Shown piece after piece: positions 34,100 to 44,176 of a stretch of DNA of 50,685 nt. The stretch lies in the NCBI GenBank assembly GCA_021793275.1, contig JAJYTC010000010.1, positions 1 to 50,685 of the forward strand. Direction: 5' to 3'. Position numbers and translations under genes: made by a program. How positions within the stretch are numbered: position 1 is the first letter of the stretch; the number at the start of each line of letters is the position of its first letter. The notes beneath the pieces are model-generated. The model did no database searches. It was not told where the DNA came from and saw only the letters and a program-made list of their open reading frames with translations. Source of the DNA: Deltaproteobacteria bacterium (GTDB lineage Bacteria; Desulfobacterota; Syntrophobacteria; Syntrophobacterales; Syntrophobacteraceae).

Positions 34100-34123
34100 T
34101 GCCCACTCACCCACTCACCCATT
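34100..34123. repeat. GTGAGTGG octamers overlapping the trpA stop
   Basis: On the minus strand the sequence reads GAATGG, GTGAGTGG, GTGAGTGG. It encodes the last residues and stop of TrpA and continues beyond. The 12-mer GAATGGGTGAGT is identical to part of the repeat behind gpsA. Confidence 0.7.
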
Positions 34124-34919
34124 CTTTTTTCATCTCGCCCTTGAGCCGGGCCGCGAATTCCCCGACCTTTTCCGCTATATCTTTATCCTGCAGACCCGAT
34201 TCGATAAGTCTTTCGAAGGCGCTTCCCACCACCACTCCGTCCGCGAATTGCGACACTTTCGCCGCGTCGTCGGGCGTGGAGATGCCAAACCCTATACACA
34301 CGGGAAGACCGTTGCAGTTTTTCTTCAAATCGTTGGCCACTGCGGCTGTTTGTTCACTATTCAGCCCGCTGCTGCCGGTGATGCCGATCATGGAAACCAG
34401 GTAGATAAAACCGGAGGCCTTCGAGGCTATCCGGGCCATGCGCTCAGGCGGGGTAGTCGGGGCTACCAGCCGGATAAAATCGAGGTCCTTTCCCCAAACG
34501 TCGGTCAGTTCGTCGGATTCTTCCGGCGGAAGGTCCACCACCAGCGTCCCGTCGGCGCCCGCAACGACCGCGTCGCCGTAAAACTTTTCGGTGCCGTAAG
34601 CCAGGATGGGATTATAGTAGCTGAAAAGGACTATCGGGATCGAGCTGAACCCTCTTATTCGCCGGACCATTTCCATCACATTTTTCATGTTCATGCCGGC
34701 GCCGATCGCGCGCGCCGAGGAACGCTGGATGACCGGGCCGTCTGCGGTCGGGTCGGAAAAAGGAACGCCAAGTTCGAGAAGGTCGACTCCCGAGCGGCAC
34801 ATTTGTCGAGTTATCTCGAGAGACCTGGTACAGTCCGGATCTCCGGCGGTAATGAAGCCCACCAGCGCTTTTTCACCCCTGGAGCGCAGCCTGCCGAAAG
34901 TTTCTTCTATCCTGCTCAT
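34107..34919 (-). CDS. trpA: Tryptophan synthase alpha chain
   Basis: 270 aa from ATG 34919 (GAGGTG upstream). A GTG at 34931 in frame overlaps the trpB stop as GTGA and is a possible alternative. TIM barrel: FITAGDPD, catalytic Glu in [26 protein letters not shown], catalytic Asp in [33 protein letters not shown] and [13 protein letters not shown]. It cleaves indole-3-glycerol phosphate to indole and channels indole to TrpB. Last gene of the trp operon. Its final residues (EWVSG) are encoded by octamer repeats. Confidence 0.97.
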
Positions 34920-34927
34920 ATACTTTT

Positions 34928-36160
34928 TCACCTCGCTTTCAGCTTTTCCACTATTCCAAGGTCCTTGTCCCCTCGCCCGGACAGGTTCACGATAACGATC
35001 TTTTCCGCCGGCATGCGGGAAGCTTCCACAAGGGCGCGAGCGACCGCGTGGGAGCTTTCCAGAGCCGGGATTATTCCCTCGACCGAACTGAGCAGGTGAA
35101 AAGCGTGAAGCGCTTCTTCGTCTAAAACGCTTTCGTAGCGCACGCGGCCCGTGTCCTTTAGCCAGGAATGCTCCGGCCCGACGCCCGGATAGTCAAGACC
35201 GGCGGATATCGAGTGAGCTTCCTTTATCTGCCCGTTTTCGTCCTGGAGCACGTAGGATTTGGAGCCGTGAAGAACGCCGACCGAACCTGCCCCGAGAGTA
35301 GCAGCATGCTTTCCGGTGCTGATTCCGCACCCCGCAGCCTCGACTCCGACCATCTCGGACCTCTCTTGAATGAAAGGGTGAAAGAGGCCCATTGCGTTGC
35401 TCCCTCCACCCACGCAGGCCACCAGCATGTCCGGCATTCTGCCTTCGGCTTCCATGATCTGCGCCTTTGCCTCGTCTCCTATCACCCGCTGGAAGTCTCG
35501 AACCATCGCCGGATACGGGTGAGGACCGGCGACCGAACCGATGACGTAGAAGGTGTCGCGCACCGAGCCAACCCAGTAGCGCATGGCCTCATTCATGGCG
35601 TCCTTCAAGGTCCCGGTCCCCGAATCCACCGGAACCACTTGGGCGCCCAGCAGTTTCATCCGCTGGACGTTGGGGGCCTGCCTGGCGATGTCTTCGGTCC
35701 CCATGAAAATCTTGCATTCCATGCCAAAGAGGGCCGCAGCAGTCGCAGTGGCGACTCCGTGCTGACCGGCGCCGGTCTCGGCGATCACCTTGGTCTTCCC
35801 CATCCACCGGGCAAGAAGCGCCTGGCCGAGCGTATTATTGATCTTGTGCGCACCGGTATGGGCGAGATCCTCCCTCTTTAGATAGATGAGCGCCCCGCCG
35901 GCATTGGCGCTTAACCGCCTGGCGCAGAAAAGCGGGGTTGGCCTGCCGGCATAGTCTTTTAAGAGCAGGTTCAATTCAGCCTGGAAAGCCGGCTCGACGC
36001 ATAGGGACATATACGCGCTCTCCAGTTCGATCAACGCGGGCATGAGCGTTTCCGCCACGTAGCGTCCGCCGTAGGGACCGAAGTGGCCCCGGCTATCCGG
36101 CACGGCCTGGTTTTGCACAGGAAATGAAGCAATTGTCGAATTATTCTCAGCCGGTTTCAT
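34928..36160 (-). CDS. trpB: Tryptophan synthase beta chain
   Basis: 410 aa. Starts near [22 protein letters not shown]-binding Lys is in [25 protein letters not shown]. Also [20 protein letters not shown], the phosphate loop [21 protein letters not shown] and [19 protein letters not shown]. This is the regular TrpB1 type that pairs with TrpA. Its ATG overlaps the trpF stop by 4 nt (ATGA), implying coupled translation. Confidence 0.98.
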
Positions 36161-36828
36161 TGGAATATCCTCCCCGGCGCGGAACGCAGTTTCGCATTCC
36201 GGACCGCCTCGATAAAAGCACGCACTTTATTTTTGTCCTTTCTTCCCGGCACAGATTCCACGCCGGAACTGACGTCAACGGCGTCCGGCCCGAATTGGCA
36301 AATGGCCTCGCCAACGTTTTCAGGGTTCAAACCTCCAGCCAAAATACAGGGCCGCTTACCCGCCAGGCCGCGGGCCGCACTCCATTCCCAGCTCAGCCCC
36401 GCCCCGCCAGGGACCGCCCCCACCCCGCTTTCAACAAGGTAAGCGGAAGCGCGATAATTTCCCGCATCCGATATAAAAGGCCTCTTTTTCTCGAAAAGGG
36501 TCTTGATTACGGATATCCCTGACGATTCGAGCGCCTCCACCATTGCCGGGGGTTCGCAGCCATGAAGCTGAACAAAGTCAAGCCGGCACAATTCCACCAT
36601 TTTCATGATCTCCAGGAAAGGCTCGTCGACAAAAACGCCGATTTTACAGACCCCTTCCGGAAGGTTCGCTCCGATTTCACGGGCCACGGGGGCGGTGACA
36701 AAGCGTGGGCTCGGAGGATAAAAAACCATGCCTATGGCGTCGGCGCCCGATTGCGCACATGCAACAGCTTCATCGACCACGGTGAGGCCGCATACCTTCA
36801 CTTGCGGAGACCCCGGACAATCAGTCAT
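36157..36828 (-). CDS. trpF: Phosphoribosylanthranilate isomerase
   Basis: 223 aa from ATG 36828, which overlaps the trpC stop as ATGA; the frame runs open to 36924 inside trpC but that part is shadow. TIM barrel with [11 protein letters not shown] (catalytic Cys), [25 protein letters not shown]-like [30 protein letters not shown] and [15 protein letters not shown]. It converts N-(5'-phosphoribosyl)anthranilate to the 1-deoxyribulose form. Confidence 0.96.
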
Positions 36829-37634
36829 CTTGCCTCTTTTCCTTTCTCTGCTCCGTGTAAGGCCCGCAGCATCATTACGGGGTCCTCCGACCTCATGAGG
36901 CTCTCGCCAATCAGGAAGTTCCATATCCCGACGTCTAGAAGCCGCTCGATATCCGAGCGCGTATGAATCCCGCTCTCGGCCACCAGCACCTGTCCGGGAG
37001 CGGCTTTGCCCGAAACGCGGATGGAAGTGGCAATGTCGGTGTCAAAGGTCGAAAGGTCGCGGTTGTTTATGCCGATAAGCCGAGCCCCGGCTTGCGATGC
37101 GATCTCGAATTCATGCTCGTTATGCGTCTCCACAAGCGCATCCAGCCCGATATCTGAGCACAAGGACAACAGGTCTCGCAGTAATTGCGGCGAAAGCGCC
37201 CTTACTATCAGTAGTATCGCATCCGCGCCCATGGCCGCCGATTCGTAGACCTGGTAAGGAGTTATAATAAAGTCCTTTCTAAGAGCGGGAAGCATGGTCG
37301 CAGCTCTCACTATCTTCAAATCCTCGGGACTTCCGCCGAAAGAATCCCGGTCGGTTAGCACCGAGACAGCCGCAGCGCCGCCTTCTTCATACATCCGTGC
37401 GAACTCGGCAGGATCGACATTGTCCCTTATTCTCCCCTTTGAAGGAGAAGCACGCTTGACTTCGGCGATCACGTTCATCCCGGCAGGTCCAGGCTCGGCC
37501 AGCCTGCCGCTAAAGGCCCTTCGCCCGTTCACCTTCTCCGCCTCACGCCGAAGAGAACCCTCCGGCACCCACTTTGCCGCTGCTCTTACTTCTTCCTTCT
37601 TCCGCTCGATAATCCTTGAAAGAAAATCGGACAT
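36825..37634 (-). CDS. trpC: Indole-3-glycerol phosphate synthase
   Basis: 269 aa. Conserved VIAEVKRASPSKGRIR (catalytic Lys), AVSVLTDRDSFGGSPEDL, LRKDFIITPYQVYES, DALVETHNEHE, IGINNRDLSTF, VAESGIHTRSDI and FLIGESLMR. It closes the indole ring in tryptophan synthesis. A separate protein, not fused to TrpF. The 45-nt gap to trpD contains two GTGAGTA heptamers. Confidence 0.97.
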   Translation of the reverse strand: MSDFLSRIIERKKEEVRAAAKWVPEGSLRREAEKVNGRRAFSGRLAEPGPAGMNVIAEVKRASPSKGRIRDNVDPAEFARMYEEGGAAAVSVLTDRDSFGGSPEDLKIVRAATMLPALRKDFIITPYQVYESAAMGADAILLIVRALSPQLLRDLLSLCSDIGLDALVETHNEHEFEIASQAGARLIGINNRDLSTFDTDIATSIRVSGKAAPGQVLVAESGIHTRSDIERLLDVGIWNFLIGESLMRSEDPVMMLRALHGAEKGKEAR

Positions 37635-37647
37635 ACCGGTTATCCTG

Positions 37648-37664
37648 GTGAGTAGTGAGTAGTA
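37648..37664. repeat. Tandem GTGAGTA heptamers between trpD and trpC
   Basis: GTGAGTA, GTGAGTA and a partial GTA in the 45-nt spacer. They sit in the only sizeable gap of the trpD-trpA part of the operon and resemble the octamers at gpsA and trpA. Confidence 0.65.
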
Positions 37665-37679
37665 TTGCAGCCCCGGCCC

Positions 37680-38687
37680 TCAATTAGTGAACCGTACATA
37701 GGCTTCCAGCTTCTCCTTCGCCCTTCCCTCGTCAATGGATGCCCGGGCCATTTCGATACCGCCGCTAAAATCACGGGCCACCCCGGCGGCGACCAGGGCT
37801 GCTCCGGCATTGACCAAGACCACGTCGCGCCTTGGGCCCTTTTCACCCGCCAGGACCTTCAGCGTGATTTCGGCGTTTTCAGCCGGCGTTCCCCCCGTCA
37901 AATCCGACTGGCGGGCAGTCCGGCCCAGCAGTTGTTCGGGCGTAATGTCATAGGTTCGGATCAATCCGTCGTTTAACTCGGACACCCTGGTGGGAGCGCA
38001 GACGCTGATCTCATCGAGCCCCTCGTGTCCATGCACGACAAAAGCCCGCCTCGAGCCGAGCCGCTGGAGAGCGCGCGCGAACATTTCAGTCAGTTCCGGG
38101 GCATAAACGCCTATCAGTTGGCAGTTGGCGCCCGCGGGATTTGTCAAAGGCCCGAGCATGTTGAAAATCGAACGCACCCCCAATTCCTTTCGCGCCTTGG
38201 CCGCATGCCGCACCGCGCCGTGAAAGAGCGGAGCGAAAAGAAATCCTATGCCGATCTGCCTTACGGCCTCTTCCACCACCTCGGGACCGGCCTCCAGGTT
38301 TGCTCCCAGCGCTTCCAGCAAATCGGCGCTACCGCATTTACTGGAAATGGAACGATTGCCGTGTTTGGCCACCGTGACCCCGCAACCCGCCACAACGAAG
38401 GCTGCCGTGGTCGAGATGTTGAAAGTGCCTGAGCCGTCGCCGCCTGTGCCGCAGGTGTCAACCACTATGTCGGCGTTTGTTTGGATCCTGGCGGCTTTTC
38501 GCCGCATCGCGCGCGCAGCCCCGGCAAGTTCGGCGAAAGTCTCGCCTTTAGTGGCAAGAGCGGCCATTATGGCCCCGATTTGAGCATCGGTCGCCCTGCC
38601 CGTCATTATCTCGCCAATCAGGCCGGCCATTTCTTCTTCGCTTAAGTCCTTCCTCGAGATCAGGCCCTTAAGGCTTTCCTGTATCAT
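37680..38687 (-). CDS. trpD: Anthranilate phosphoribosyltransferase
   Basis: 335 aa. PRPP- and metal-binding DTCGTGGDGSGTFNISTTAAFV, KHGNRSISSKCGSADLLEALG, FLFAPLFHGAVRHA, RSIFNMLGPLTNPA and HGHEGLDEIS. It transfers phosphoribose to anthranilate. A stand-alone enzyme, separate from the glutaminase. Its ATG overlaps the trpG stop by 4 nt (ATGA). Confidence 0.97.
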   Translation of the reverse strand: MIQESLKGLISRKDLSEEEMAGLIGEIMTGRATDAQIGAIMAALATKGETFAELAGAARAMRRKAARIQTNADIVVDTCGTGGDGSGTFNISTTAAFVVAGCGVTVAKHGNRSISSKCGSADLLEALGANLEAGPEVVEEAVRQIGIGFLFAPLFHGAVRHAAKARKELGVRSIFNMLGPLTNPAGANCQLIGVYAPELTEMFARALQRLGSRRAFVVHGHEGLDEISVCAPTRVSELNDGLIRTYDITPEQLLGRTARQSDLTGGTPAENAEITLKVLAGEKGPRRDVVLVNAGAALVAAGVARDFSGGIEMARASIDEGRAKEKLEAYVRFTN

Positions 38688-39283
38688 GCTTGTTCCTCCC
38701 GTTCAGTCTTTTGCCTGCCGGCAAGAGATAGAAAATTTTTCAACAGCCGTTTGCCAACGGGTGTCATGATGGATTCAGGATGAAACTGCACACCTTCGAT
38801 GAGGTGTTCTTTGTGGCGGATTCCCATAATTTCGCCGTCTTCCGAGCGGGCCGTGACTTCCAGGCAAGCCGGCAGGCTCTGCGGGGCCACGGCCAGGGAA
38901 TGGTAGCGCATTGCCTGAAAAGGGTTCGATATGCCGGCATAAATTGACTTCCCATCGGAGCTTACCGTGGAAACTTTTCCGTGCATCAGTTTTTTGGCGT
39001 GGACCACCTCGGCCCCGAAAGCCGCCGCAATCGCCTGGTGCCCGAGGCAAATTCCCAGTATGGGTATCTTTCCGGAAAATCTCCGAATGGCCTCGATCGA
39101 AACCCCGGCCTCCTCGGGCCGGCACGGCCCAGGCGAAATTACCACGGCGGACGGCGCGAGGTTTTCGATATCGTCGATGGATACCTCGTCGTTTCTGGCT
39201 ACCTCGACTTCACTGCCGAGCATCCCGAAGTACTGGAAAAGATTGTAAGTAAAGGAATCGTAGTTATCGATCATGAATATCAT
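38684..39283 (-). CDS. trpG: Anthranilate synthase glutamine amidotransferase component
   Basis: 199 aa, AAGGAG 8 nt before ATG. Class I glutamine amidotransferase: IDNYDSFTYNLFQYFG, SPGPCRPEEAG, nucleophile Cys in ILGICLGHQAIAAAFG, and the His-Glu pair in GVQFHPESIMTPVG. It supplies ammonia to TrpE; such subunits sometimes also serve aminodeoxychorismate synthase (PabA). The position between trpE and trpD makes the anthranilate role primary. Confidence 0.96.
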   Translation of the reverse strand: MIFMIDNYDSFTYNLFQYFGMLGSEVEVARNDEVSIDDIENLAPSAVVISPGPCRPEEAGVSIEAIRRFSGKIPILGICLGHQAIAAAFGAEVVHAKKLMHGKVSTVSSDGKSIYAGISNPFQAMRYHSLAVAPQSLPACLEVTARSEDGEIMGIRHKEHLIEGVQFHPESIMTPVGKRLLKNFLSLAGRQKTEREEQA

Positions 39284-39330
39284 GGATCTACTCCTTACAG
39301 GGTGCGGTGCGAGTTCGCTCCCCGGGCCGG

Positions 39331-40815
39331 CTAAAGAGCCGGCGATTTGCCCTCGAGCATCTGCAGTGCCCTGTGTATCGATTTGGCCTTGTTGATGGTC
39401 TCCTGCCTTTCACGCTCCGGATCGGAGTCGGCGACGATACCCGCTCCCGCCCTTACCGTCAGCTTGCCATCCCGGATGCAGGCGGTCCGGATCGTGATTG
39501 CAAGGTCCATGTTGCCGGTATAGGAAAAATAGCCGATCGCGCCTCCATAAGGCCCCCGAGGCTCATCTTCAAGCTCGGCTATAATCTTCATGGCCCTCAC
39601 CTTGGGGGCGCCGGTAAGCGTCCCGGCCGGAAAAGCGGCCCTGAAGAGGTCGAAGGCGTCCAGTCCCTCGCGCAAATCGCAATTTATGTTCGAAACCAGG
39701 TGCATGACGTGCGAGTATCTTTCGACCACCATCAGGTCGGTCACCTGCACAGAACCGATTTCGGCGACCCTGCCGAGGTCGTTTCTGCCCAGATCCACCA
39801 GCATGAGATGCTCGGCCCTCTCCTTTTCATCTCTTAGCAGCTCGTCTGCAAGCTCCCGGTCCTGCTGTTCGGTTTTTCCGCGAGGGCGGGTGCCTGCAAT
39901 GGGGCGAAGAGTGGCCACCCCGTTTTCCAGGCGCACCATGGTTTCCGGAGATGAGCCGACAAGGATGGTGTCGTCAAAATGAAGGAAATAGAGGTACGGA
40001 GATGGATTTATGAAACGTTGCGCACGGTAAAGAGAGCGGGGATCGGGCGTGGCCGAACAACTGAACTGTTGTGAATATACCGCCTGGATGATATCTCCCT
40101 CCCTGATGTATTCCTTGATCCTGGCAACGTCAGCTCGAAATTTCTGCGGTTCGGTCTCCTGGCTCAAAGCAAAATCGCTCTGCTCAGGTCGAGGAAACGG
40201 CTCCGGCGGGCCTTCGAGCTTGCTCTGCATTTCCCTCAAAGTCTCAACGGCCCGGTCGTAGGCTTCGTCGGCCCCGCCGTTTTCCACCAGCGCGTAAGCC
40301 ACAAGGCTGAGGGTATGCCGCACGTTATCGAATACGAACAGTTGTCCCGGCAGGATAAAATGCGCGATCGGGACATCTGCGGGCAGTCGGTTTTCAATCG
40401 CTTCGAAAAAAGACACGAACTCGTAGGCGAAAAATCCGACCATGCCGCCCCAGAACCTGGGCAGCCTCGACAGCTTTACCGGCTTGTACCGGGCCATAAG
40501 CGAACGCAGGATTTTGAGCGGGTCTCCGTGATGGGCGATTCGCTCTTTGCCCGCGCCGCTCTCGATTTCGACTTCGTCGCGAAAGACCCTGACACTCTTT
40601 GTGGCGGAATTGCCCAGAAAACTATACCTTCCCCACCTCTCGCCGCCCTCCATGCTTTCCAGGAGGAAAACCGGACCATGGCCCCGGTATATTTTTGCAA
40701 GCGCGGAAACAGGCGTCTCCATATCGGCAAGCACTTCCATACACACCGGGATAAGGTTTCCCTTCTCAGCCATAGCCCTAAATTCAGATCTTTGCGGGTA
40801 AAAACCCAATTCCAT
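39331..40815 (-). CDS. trpE: Anthranilate synthase component I
   Basis: 494 aa from ATG 40815, chosen because AAGGAGA lies 6 nt upstream and the N-terminus FYPQRSEFRAMAEKGNLIPV matches the family; it overlaps the 3' end of aroF by 32 nt. The tryptophan feedback site LLES is present (PVFLLESMEGGERWGRYSFLG). Chorismate-binding domain: SPETMVRLENGVATLRPIAGTRPRGKT, DELLRDEKERAEHLMLVDLGRNDLGRVA and GAPKVRAMKIIAELE. It makes anthranilate from chorismate with TrpG. Feedback inhibition by tryptophan is expected from the intact LLES. Confidence 0.97.
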   Translation of the reverse strand: MELGFYPQRSEFRAMAEKGNLIPVCMEVLADMETPVSALAKIYRGHGPVFLLESMEGGERWGRYSFLGNSATKSVRVFRDEVEIESGAGKERIAHHGDPLKILRSLMARYKPVKLSRLPRFWGGMVGFFAYEFVSFFEAIENRLPADVPIAHFILPGQLFVFDNVRHTLSLVAYALVENGGADEAYDRAVETLREMQSKLEGPPEPFPRPEQSDFALSQETEPQKFRADVARIKEYIREGDIIQAVYSQQFSCSATPDPRSLYRAQRFINPSPYLYFLHFDDTILVGSSPETMVRLENGVATLRPIAGTRPRGKTEQQDRELADELLRDEKERAEHLMLVDLGRNDLGRVAEIGSVQVTDLMVVERYSHVMHLVSNINCDLREGLDAFDLFRAAFPAGTLTGAPKVRAMKIIAELEDEPRGPYGGAIGYFSYTGNMDLAITIRTACIRDGKLTVRAGAGIVADSDPERERQETINKAKSIHRALQMLEGKSPAL

Positions 40816-41887
40816 AGCCTGTCTCCTTCTCGGCCCGGACTTCAGCCACGACATGATCGTTTTCGCAGCCCTGGTTTGTCGATGTTTTATAGATGCCGGC
40901 AATAGTCTCCACCTGCCTGCACAGATCAAAGAACTGATCGGGATAAAGCGACTGCGCCCCGTCGCTCAAGGCCTTTTCCGGCTCGTTGTGGACTTCCACT
41001 ATCAGGCCGTGACAGCCCACTGCAACGGCGGCCCGGCTAAGCGGGACCACCTGGTCCCTGAAACCCGCGGCATGGCTGGGGTCTACGATTACAGGCAGAT
41101 GACTCTCCTGTTTCACCACCGGAACGGCTGAAAGATCCAGGGTGTTTCGGCTGTGGTTAGCGAACGTGCGGACCCCGCGCTCACAAAGAATGACCTTGTT
41201 GTTTCCACCCTCCATAATGTACTCGGCGGCCATCAGCCACTCCTCTATGGTAGCGGCCATGCCTCGTTTCAAAAGAACGGCTTTCCTCGATTTGCCGGCC
41301 CGCCGCAAAAGGCTGAAGTTTTGCATGTTCCTGGCGCCTATCTGGACAATGTCGGCGTAATGCTCGACCAGGTCGTAGACCTCATGGTCAATTGCTTCCG
41401 TAACAACAGGCATTCCGGTTTCACTGCGCACCTTGGCCAGGATCTTAAGCCCCTGCTCTCCCAATCCTTGAAAAGCGTAAGGCGATGTCCTGGGCTTGTA
41501 GGCGCCGCCACGAAAAATCTGCGCGCCCCGCTCCTTCACCACTCGGGCGATCTCAAGGGCCCCCGATTCGCTCTCGATCGCGCAGGGCCCTGCCATGACG
41601 GTGAGATGACCATTTCCGATAAGGACTTCGCCAACCTCTATAATCGTGTCGCATGGCCGGGACTCCCGGCTTACGAGCTTGAAGGGCCGCGTCACCGGAA
41701 TAACCTCTTTTACCGCCGGAAGCTGCGTGAACAGGCAGGCATCCACAGGACCGTGATTGTGAAGAATGCAGATCGCCACCCGCTCTCCGCCCGGAATCGG
41801 TCTCGCGGTAAATCCCTTCTGCTCGATAGCGCAGACCGCCCCCTCGATCTCCTCCTCAAGGGCGCCCTTTTTCATTACGACCAGCAC
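40784..41887 (-). CDS. aroF: 3-deoxy-7-phosphoheptulonate (DAHP) synthase, AroA-I-beta type
   Basis: 367 aa. GTG start with AAGGAG 7 nt upstream. N-terminal ferredoxin-like regulatory domain (about 1-90, MLVVMKKGALEEEIEGAVCAI) as in Thermotoga DAHP synthase. Catalytic barrel: VMAGPCAIESE, FRGGAYKPRTSPYAFQGLGEQGL, VVTEAIDH, QIGARNMQNFSLLR, VLLKRGM, LCERGVRTF, PVIVDPSHAAG and GLIVEVHNEPEKALSDGAQSL. First step of the aromatic pathway. As first gene of the trp operon behind an attenuator-like leader, its supply is tied to tryptophan demand. Confidence 0.95.
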   Translation of the reverse strand: MLVVMKKGALEEEIEGAVCAIEQKGFTARPIPGGERVAICILHNHGPVDACLFTQLPAVKEVIPVTRPFKLVSRESRPCDTIIEVGEVLIGNGHLTVMAGPCAIESESGALEIARVVKERGAQIFRGGAYKPRTSPYAFQGLGEQGLKILAKVRSETGMPVVTEAIDHEVYDLVEHYADIVQIGARNMQNFSLLRRAGKSRKAVLLKRGMAATIEEWLMAAEYIMEGGNNKVILCERGVRTFANHSRNTLDLSAVPVVKQESHLPVIVDPSHAAGFRDQVVPLSRAAVAVGCHGLIVEVHNEPEKALSDGAQSLYPDQFFDLCRQVETIAGIYKTSTNQGCENDHVVAEVRAEKETGYGIGFLPAKI

Positions 41888-41907: not shown

Positions 41908-41945
41908 AAAAAAAGAAAGGGACCGCAGATTTAATCCACGGTCCC
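41908..41945 (-). terminator. Second leader terminator, just before aroF
   Basis: On the minus strand: stem GGGACCG / CGGTCCC (41939-41945 with 41919-41925) and a 13-nt loop, followed by a T-rich tract. The T-tract ends about 20 nt before the GTG start of aroF, so termination here would silence the whole operon. Confidence 0.75.
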
Positions 41946-41947
41946 TC

Positions 41948-41988
41948 TCAAAAACAAAAGACCGTGGGCCTTGGCGCGGCCCACGGTC
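41948..41988 (-). terminator. First leader terminator of the aroF-trp operon
   Basis: Perfect 11-bp stem GACCGTGGGCC / GGCCCACGGTC with a 7-nt loop (41960-41988), followed on the minus strand by TTTTGTTTTTG. Its 3' arm CCACGGTC is also complementary to GACCGTGG at the start of the second hairpin, so the two terminators can be exchanged for an alternative pairing. Confidence 0.8.
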
Positions 41989-42001
41989 CAACCAGTTATC
42001 A

Positions 42002-42064
42002 TCATTTAGAACTGATGGCTATCCCGTCAGGCGAGCGCCTCCACAGATAAACCACCAGCACCAT
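42002..42064 (-). CDS. Candidate leader peptide of the aroF-trp operon
   Basis: Twenty-codon frame on the minus strand, reading MVLVVYLWRRSPDGIAIS and two more residues before TGA. It contains one Tyr and one Trp codon (codons 6 and 8) and ends 14 nt before the first of two terminator hairpins. That is the layout of an attenuator leader. No convincing Shine-Dalgarno sequence precedes the ATG, and only one Trp codon is present, which is weaker than classical tandem Trp codons. A possible promoter (GCGACA, 18 nt, TATAGA) lies further upstream. Confidence 0.5.
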   Translation of the reverse strand: MVLVVYLWRRSPDGIAISSK

Positions 42065-42196
42065 GAATTCGGTCTATTGATCACATTTTCCATCTATAAC
42101 AGTCTCCAGTTACGATTGTCGCATTTTTAACAGGCCCCAATGATAATTGCAAGAAAATTTTTCAACCGCCCGAAGATTTTAAGATTCTGCGGACGT

Positions 42197-42225
42197 TTGA
42201 CTTCGCTGCCCGATGTCAGTATGAT
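42197..42225 (+). promoter_or_regulatory. Sigma-70-type promoter of the PHA-synthase-like gene
   Basis: TTGACT (42197-42202), 17-nt spacer, TATGAT (42220-42225); five of six consensus bases in each box. It leaves a leader of about 205 nt before the ATG at 42437. Confidence 0.7.
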
Positions 42226-42436: not shown

Positions 42437-44176
42437 ATGCAAAATTATTTTAGAGCGCCTTTCGAAATCTTTAGCGCAGCCGCTTCCATGATGAGCCGAT
42501 CGATGCAGATTGCGCCTAAAGTCAGCCAGGCTGCTTTGGCCCAGACCAAAGCAGCGCAGTATTACTGGAATGGAATACTCAGCTACGTAACGGCATTCAT
42601 GGCGCCGTCGTTTGACGCCTTTAATGCCTTCACAAATAGTGAAAGAAAAAAGCTTGCCGAAAAGTCTGCCTCGCAGAATTTGCAAGACTACAACCAATTG
42701 CTCGACCTGAACGTCGAGCTTGCCGGCGCCGCAATGGCAGGCAGCGTCAATGCCATGAACAACTTCTTCTATGGCTGGCTAAGCAGGGGGGTGTCAGCCT
42801 GGCTGGAGTCCTTCAAAAACGAAGACAGCCTGTGCGACTTTGCTTCCAGGCTCGAAGAGGTCCTCAAGCTGACCGTTAAGGAATATCCGAAAGCTATAAA
42901 GGCCATAAAGTCCGAATATGGTTTCCACCTCGATGACACCGGGTATATCAAAGTTGCCGAGACCGATCGCTTCTACCTCTACCAGGTTCTGCCGAATAAA
43001 AAAGATGTAGTGTCCAGAAGCAAACCCATCCTCATCGTTCCTCCTTATGTGCTGGGCGCCAACATCTTGGCCTTCCTGCCCGCAGAGCAAAGGAGCTACG
43101 TTCATTTCTACGCCAACCAGGGAGTCCCTACTTACATTCGGCTGATCAAGGATATACAAACCAATGTGCCCGTCCAGACGATGACAGGCGAAGATGACGC
43201 TCTCGACACGCAATTCTTCTGCCGGGAATTGATGGCAAGGCATAAAAGACCGGTTACCCTCAACGGTTTCTGCCAGGGCGGCTACCTGACCCTTGCATCG
43301 CTTTTATCGGGCGAATTGGACGGCCTGGTGGACGCCCTTATAACCTGCGTCACTCCTATTGACGGCACCCGGAGCAAGTCCCTGACAGCCTTTATCAACA
43401 GTATGCCGGCAAGGTTTCGGGACCTGAAATATTCTGAAAAGGTGCTGCCCGATGGTAACGCGGTGGTTGGCGGGTCAATTTTGTCGTGGGTCTACAAACT
43501 GCGCAAACTGGAAACCGAGTCGCCGATCGCGGCCTTCCATCGCGATATAGACATGTTTGACAGCCAGCCGACGCCCCATCCGAAAATCGGAAAGACCGCC
43601 GCAGCCATCAACCAATGGATGCTCTATGACCAGGCGGACCTGCCGTATAACATTACCAAAATGAGTTTCGATTCTTATACCGTTCCCATAGACAAAGAAG
43701 GGAACCTGCCGGTAACCCTTTTCGGGCGAAAGCTCAATTTGAAGCGGATCGAGGAGAAGAAAATCCCCTGGCTTATCTGTATCGCCGAGGGCGACGATCT
43801 GGTTGACAGGGAAGCCGCCCTGGCCCCGCGCGATTACATAGATTCCCGGGTCGAAGTCTGCGTGTTTCCAAAAGGCCATGCCTCCATTGCGACCTCCTGG
43901 TCGATTCCCACTTCGCAATGCGCGCTTCATCTTCATTTTCATCCGCCCGGGACCCCGGCCATGGGATATTGCAAGACATGCCGCGGGCCGGTCTGCTTCC
44001 AGATAGACCTCGATGAAGCCACCGAACCGGTAGAAAGCCCCCAACCCGAGGAACTGCAAAAGGTGTCTTTGTCTCCCAAGACTCGAGGCGGCAAAACCGC
44101 CGGGAAGACAAAAAAAGGCGGCGCCGAACTAAAGCCCCGGCGCCCTGAGAAAACCACTACATCGAGGGAAAAATGA
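42437..44176 (+). CDS. Polyhydroxyalkanoate synthase-like alpha/beta hydrolase
   Basis: 579 aa, GGGAGA 5 nt before ATG. Helical N-terminal region (1-150) of the PhaC-N kind, then an alpha/beta-hydrolase core. The lipase-like box is GFCQGGY, with Cys in place of Ser as in PHA synthases. The other triad members are the Asp in AEGDDLVD and the His in PKGHASIA. The C-terminal 60 residues are a Lys/Pro/Thr-rich basic tail (KTRGGKTAGKTKKGG) not typical of characterised PhaC. It may polymerise hydroxyacyl-CoA to storage polyester. No phaA, phaB, phaE or phasin gene is adjacent, so class and substrate remain open. Related genes are often annotated only as poly(3-hydroxyalkanoate) synthetase. Confidence 0.82.
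   Translation: MQNYFRAPFEIFSAAASMMSRSMQIAPKVSQAALAQTKAAQYYWNGILSYVTAFMAPSFDAFNAFTNSERKKLAEKSASQNLQDYNQLLDLNVELAGAAMAGSVNAMNNFFYGWLSRGVSAWLESFKNEDSLCDFASRLEEVLKLTVKEYPKAIKAIKSEYGFHLDDTGYIKVAETDRFYLYQVLPNKKDVVSRSKPILIVPPYVLGANILAFLPAEQRSYVHFYANQGVPTYIRLIKDIQTNVPVQTMTGEDDALDTQFFCRELMARHKRPVTLNGFCQGGYLTLASLLSGELDGLVDALITCVTPIDGTRSKSLTAFINSMPARFRDLKYSEKVLPDGNAVVGGSILSWVYKLRKLETESPIAAFHRDIDMFDSQPTPHPKIGKTAAAINQWMLYDQADLPYNITKMSFDSYTVPIDKEGNLPVTLFGRKLNLKRIEEKKIPWLICIAEGDDLVDREAALAPRDYIDSRVEVCVFPKGHASIATSWSIPTSQCALHLHFHPPGTPAMGYCKTCRGPVCFQIDLDEATEPVESPQPEELQKVSLSPKTRGGKTAGKTKKGGAELKPRRPEKTTTSREK

Follow-up and report, generated by a model that had tools for sequence, protein, structure and literature searches.

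The E. coli trpL attenuator combines a Trp-rich leader peptide, the RNA pairings 1:2, 2:3 and 3:4 and an intrinsic terminator ahead of the trp operon, and this textbook form has four segments and one terminator. The leader described here shares the Trp-rich peptide, the three pairings, an intrinsic terminator and the trp genes with trpL, but it has a second intrinsic terminator, which appears to be coupled to the first by a further pairing (4:5) that makes six segments, and DAHP synthase comes first in the operon. The original prediction had named the double terminator and a mixed Tyr/Trp leader as the differences from the classical trp leader; the former is conserved in 34 of 35 genomes, whereas the conserved leader frame is Trp-rich. 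On anatomy, membership of the trp attenuator class is close to certain. Two attenuation steps in one leader, with leader peptides, are also found in the Salmonella mgtCBR leader, where tandem attenuators sense two signals independently through two peptides and the stem-loops are unlike intrinsic terminators (PMC3641672), whereas here one sensor would set two intrinsic terminators. Tandem riboswitches, with B. clausii metE as an example, likewise have two intrinsic terminators per leader, but according to the same article (PMC3641672) each terminator there has its own sensor, instead of the one sensor with a relay proposed here. The rimP leader of some Gammaproteobacteria is similar in having two tandem intrinsic terminators of related (inverse) motif and a proposed antiterminator, but it belongs to another operon, and the available part of its description includes no leader peptide and no exchange pairing between the terminators (PMC2965389). 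A survey that sought novel RNAs in 50 genomes, with Geobacter included, mentions no such motif in the portion available (PMC11109978). The window's leader does not match Rfam Trp_leader at the gathering score and has no Rfam family. In the literature open to search, we found no account of a trp attenuator, or of any other leader-peptide attenuator, with tandem terminators; the six-segment form may nevertheless have been described before, for instance in older comparative studies of trp attenuators.

The window, the whole stretch of 50,685 nucleotides analysed here, is one contig of a 4.65-Mb genome of the order Syntrophobacterales. Its minus strand carries eight genes, with DAHP synthase first, then trpE, trpG, trpD, trpC, trpF and trpB, and trpA last. 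All are named by NCBIfam, which bears out the gene order first proposed from the sequence. The leader precedes these tryptophan biosynthesis genes and, from its position, would control them. The features are as follows.

42019..42093, minus strand: trp leader peptide, translated as MENVINRPNSWCWWFICGGARLTG and ending at a stop codon, with GGAG at 42107..42104, 10 nt upstream of the ATG
42052..42063, minus strand: sensor codons TGG TGC TGG TGG (Trp-Cys-Trp-Trp), the conserved W-rich cluster, within segment 1
42002..42064, minus strand: the 20-codon frame of the original prediction, open, with its ATG at 42064 and one Tyr and one Trp codon
42024..42039, minus strand: segment 2, the 5' strand of the antiterminator (GGCGCTCGCCTGACGG), which pairs with 41986..41973 (5' arm and loop of terminator 1)
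41959..41989, minus strand: terminator 1 (T1), 12 pairs, segment 3 at 41989..41978 and segment 4 at 41970..41959, T-tract to about 41951
41936..41967, minus strand: the 4:5 pairing, a hairpin of 12 bp around an 8-nt loop, 41967..41956 with 41947..41936, -17.8 kcal/mol
41915..41949, minus strand: terminator 2 (T2), 16 pairs, segment 5 at 41949..41934 and segment 6 at 41930..41915, T-tract 41914..41908
40784..41887, minus strand: DAHP synthase, operon gene 1, GTG start with AAGGAG upstream (NF006421, TIGR01361)
34107..40929, minus strand: trpE, trpG, trpD, trpC, trpF, trpB and trpA (NCBIfam)
34107..34931, minus strand: trpA, last operon gene (NCBIfam)

Each of the 35 genomes assessed in the order has a short Trp-rich leader ORF in front of DAHP synthase; in the window the Trp codons of this ORF are clustered, and a ribosome-binding site precedes it. 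The cluster varies among relatives (WCWW, WFWW, WRWWW, WWCWWW), and genome G036 has W-G-W only. A different sensor had been proposed at first, namely the 20-codon frame, which lies one base off the conserved frame. Although this frame is indeed open, its ATG is found in only one of the 35 genomes, the window's own, and it is therefore rejected as the leader and considered fortuitous. Since the Trp cluster is kept in every genome and the other ATG in the window's genome only, the leader is a Trp leader and not a mixed Tyr/Trp leader. We give almost no credence to the full version of that proposal, in which the Tyr/Trp frame acts as the sensor and the sole antiterminator is the pairing between the terminators, disrupting both of them: the open frame does offer one Tyr and one Trp codon, but its start codon is not kept where the W-rich frame is, and 4:5 cannot disrupt T1 because the polymerase is past the T1 U-tract before segment 5 exists.

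Two tandem terminator hairpins with T-tracts on the minus strand, as proposed, were recovered by terminator search and by conservation, with T1 at 12 instead of 11 bp and T2 at 16 pairs instead of 7. The leader folds with a z-score of -6.6 relative to dinucleotide shuffles, and its region holds three terminator-like sites, one of them nested in T1, compared to a mean of 0.8 in the shuffles. An intrinsic terminator thus lies between the leader ORF and the first gene. Both terminators are present in 34 of the 35 genomes of the order, and the remaining one (G036) has Ns at the T2 site. T1 is conserved within the order and, beyond it, in many Desulfobacterota. T2 likewise occurs in DAHP synthase-first leaders of many Desulfobacteria and other classes, and it is lacking or went undetected in certain lineages, such as G087, L089, L093 and L128. 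The predicted arrangement of tandem terminators with complementary arms is kept across much of the phylum Desulfobacterota. T1 is not a general terminator motif or repeat, as the palindrome CCGTGGG-N3..14-CCCACGG occurs once in the 4.65-Mb genome, at T1. Nor do tandem terminators look like a general habit of these genomes, as none of 52 regions of relatives upstream of ilvB (30) or hisG (22) showed a pair of strong terminators side by side.

The position of T2 also bears on whether T2, or the pairing with its partner, governs how the DAHP synthase mRNA is translated or how stable it is, instead of termination. In the window, 8 nt separate the end of T2 from AAGGAG, and the ribosome-binding site of leader L099 adjoins a hairpin that has no T-tract, as such a role would allow. 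However, in several genera T2 lies about 75-120 nt from the start codon, and in two more than 200 nt, with the T-tract kept, which makes sequestration of the ribosome-binding site by T2 unlikely and leaves this explanation barely credible. The L099 hairpin takes the place of T2 within the 50 nt that precede the start of DAHP synthase and has the same 5' arm (GCCGTGGG), and a switch from termination to translation control is possible in that leader.

Pairing of segment 2 with segment 3, which the original prediction lacked, is the predicted main antiterminator. In the RNA that extends from the edge of a ribosome stalled at the Trp codons to just before the T1 3' arm, 2:3 is the minimum-energy fold (-30.7 kcal/mol). 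In 40 leaders, 2:3 was stronger with its own partners than with swapped partners in every permutation (-20.8 versus -16.1 kcal/mol, sd 0.48, 0/2000), in a test where swaps ignore kinship. Paired changes such as GGTGTG/CACACC, GGAGTG/CACTCC and GGGTG/CACCC show the covariation directly. The 2:3 pairing is thus both covarying and mutually exclusive with T1, and the choice between the two follows classical trp attenuator logic.

The key insight of the original prediction was that the T1 3' arm (CCACGGTC) is complementary to the T2 5' arm (GACCGTGG), and this complementarity is real, conserved and covarying. We compared 4:5 with a mirror pairing, in which the T1 5' arm pairs with the T2 3' arm. 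In 39 genus-level lineages, 4:5 averaged -16.2 kcal/mol and the mirror -11.5 kcal/mol, and 4:5 was stronger in 36 of the 39 (Wilcoxon p 3.7e-7). With kinship ignored, the arms paired better with their own partners than with swapped ones (-16.2 versus -12.6 kcal/mol, sd 0.43, 0/2000 permutations), and the same held outside the order (-15.2 versus -10.8, sd 0.62, 0/2000, kinship again ignored). Inside the order, where 158 of 2000 swaps did as well, the test is uninformative because the arms hardly vary there. With the register fixed at 10 bp, 371 of 390 cells were paired (95%) in the 39 lineages, compared to 38-51% in shifted registers; these counts use hand-anchored registers, and row G132 is not an exact match to its T2 string. 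Covariation in relatives, which had been suggested as a check, appeared as two-sided changes in 48 cells versus 11.7 (sd 3.5) after swaps that ignored kinship (0/2000). As related genomes share both arms, swaps leave common descent uncorrected, and the roughly 8 separate coordinated motif changes counted by eye are a fairer sample size. Single leaders illustrate the pairing: the T2 5' arm of L125 (GGTTGGGGG) is the exact complement of its T1 3' arm (CCCCCAACC), while each hairpin alone has a mismatch; GTAAG pairs with CTTGC in L088 with one G-U, GTGAC with GTCAC in L086, and GTGGC with GCCAC in L100.

Duplication of T1 could also have produced such arms. A classical four-segment attenuator would then have an independent backup in T2, the likeness of the arms would reflect history or gene conversion, and 4:5 would have no function. 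The 5' arms of T1 and T2 do carry the same motif, T2 is missing in some lineages, and the mirror pairing also beats swapped partners across all lineages (0/2000) and roughly equals 4:5 in strength in the genus to which the window belongs. However, duplication predicts no asymmetry, so the advantage of 4:5 over the mirror in 36 of 39 lineages counts against mere duplication, and the coordinated changes keep 4:5, sometimes against the pairing of the hairpins themselves, as in L125. In addition, an uncoupled strong T2 would still stop the antiterminated polymerase and block the transcript, and 4:5 would supply the way out. We therefore consider duplication alone unlikely. Across lineages, 4:5 is conserved, covarying and stronger than the mirror, with the two about equal in the window's genus, and the coupling of T1 and T2 through 4:5 is strongly supported by this pattern and by the predicted folds.

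In the order, a GTGGG-type motif is strongly conserved in both 5' arms, which could mean that the arms are protein sites, for example for NusA or an unknown RNA-binding regulator, with the inter-terminator pairing as a by-product; one study reports NusA touching the upstream arm of attenuator hairpins (PMC2965389). In other lineages, however, the motif becomes GGCTGCAG, GGTTGGGGG or CCATGG with complementarity retained, and the Trp-rich leader and the covarying 2:3 already provide a sensor, which makes protein sites a very improbable explanation.

To follow the coupled terminators along the growing transcript, both alternatives were folded, as originally proposed. With a stalled ribosome and with segment 5 out but segment 6 not yet made, 2:3 together with 4:5 is the unconstrained minimum-energy fold (-50.1 kcal/mol). 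Once segment 6 is present, T1 with T2 is the more stable fold (-67.0 kcal/mol), and T2 is still favoured when 2:3 is kept (-62.1 kcal/mol). The alternative fold is thus the minimum before segment 6 but not afterwards, and antitermination has to be a kinetic effect, just as it is in the textbook attenuator. When no ribosome is stalled, the RNA folds as 1:2 with T1 and T2 (-84.3 kcal/mol). The idea that the inter-terminator pairing disrupts both terminators stands for T2, which 4:5 opposes in the predicted fold, and fails for T1, which 2:3 would disarm.

The leader had been proposed to be of the attenuator type, and anatomy and conservation support this for the DAHP synthase-trp operon. Covariation and folding together make it quite probable that it is a trp transcription attenuator of the ribosome-mediated kind, in which the usual four alternating RNA segments have become six. 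Ribosome stalling, the kinetic order of pairing, the termination efficiencies and the regulatory output are what we infer here. When charged tRNA-Trp is ample, the ribosome would complete the leader peptide, 1:2 would form and 2:3 would not, and T1 (3:4) would form and halt RNA polymerase, while a polymerase slipping past T1 would meet T2 (5:6). When tRNA-Trp is scarce, the ribosome would stall on the TGG codons, 2:3 would pair and T1 would be blocked; the freed segment 4 would then capture the emerging segment 5 before segment 6 exists, and T2 would be skipped. The order of synthesis (4, 5, then 6) favours 4:5, whereas the mirror could pair only when it is too late. T2 would thereby be a fail-safe terminator that senses whether T1 has formed: with T1 formed, segment 4 would be locked and T2 would catch leaked polymerases, and in the antiterminated state segment 4 would be free and T2 disarmed. 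In this way T2 would reduce basal expression and yet leave induced expression unblocked.

In its general form the proposal is an RNA relay, in which the position of one ribosome would set 2:3 and, through it, 4:5, so that one sensor sets two terminators. We lean towards this relay being widespread in the trp leaders of Desulfobacterota, where no TrpR was found: a search of 40 relatives gave no TrpR above the cut-off, and a missing Trp repressor would fit a need for tighter attenuation. If this is true, bacteria without a Trp repressor could gain tight control from RNA alone, and a two-terminator version of the textbook trp attenuator with a conserved exchange pairing would extend across much of a phylum. 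A low-leak synthetic switch could possibly be designed on the same layout.

Variants of the leader were observed in relatives. Tandem terminators with complementary arms, T2 included, also precede trpE-first operons in G139, G067, G084, G120, G091, G058 and G132 (leaders L284, L282, L269, L280, L271, L275 and L285, respectively), and both terminators of G139 carry CCGCGGG instead of CCGTGGG. In these seven leaders, own partners had a modest advantage over swapped ones for both 4:5 and the mirror (172 and 80 of 5040). In five leaders of Syntrophaceae/Smithellaceae and unnamed deltaproteobacteria (L140, L142, L144, L147 and L148), a Phe/Tyr-rich leader lies upstream of DAHP synthase, for example FFGYWFYYYASVCLSLGRTW with a single Trp in the cluster. 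Most of these have tandem terminators with the CCATGG motif and a strong 4:5, and in Syntrophaceae DAHP synthase leaders 4:5 reached -19 to -23 kcal/mol compared to -13.5 to -14.2 kcal/mol for the mirror, which looks like a coupled double terminator with a Phe/Tyr sensor.

Other observations concern the loci themselves. In leader L069 (G037:C1:2309100-2310600), the trp leader and both terminators are intact, and the DAHP synthase behind them lacks its catalytic domain, its N- and C-terminal pieces being joined in frame and followed by trpE. Among the ilvB-type matches, two in G015 (C1, 3682003-3685845 and 3726755-3730597) lie about 44.7 kb apart with identical scores, which suggests a large segmental duplication. 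In the window, the intergenic region of the trp leader also holds a divergent promoter-like site (TTGACT-17-TATGAT, 42197-42225, plus strand), which faces a 579-aa ORF (42437-44176, plus strand) that resembles a polyhydroxyalkanoate synthase by eye.
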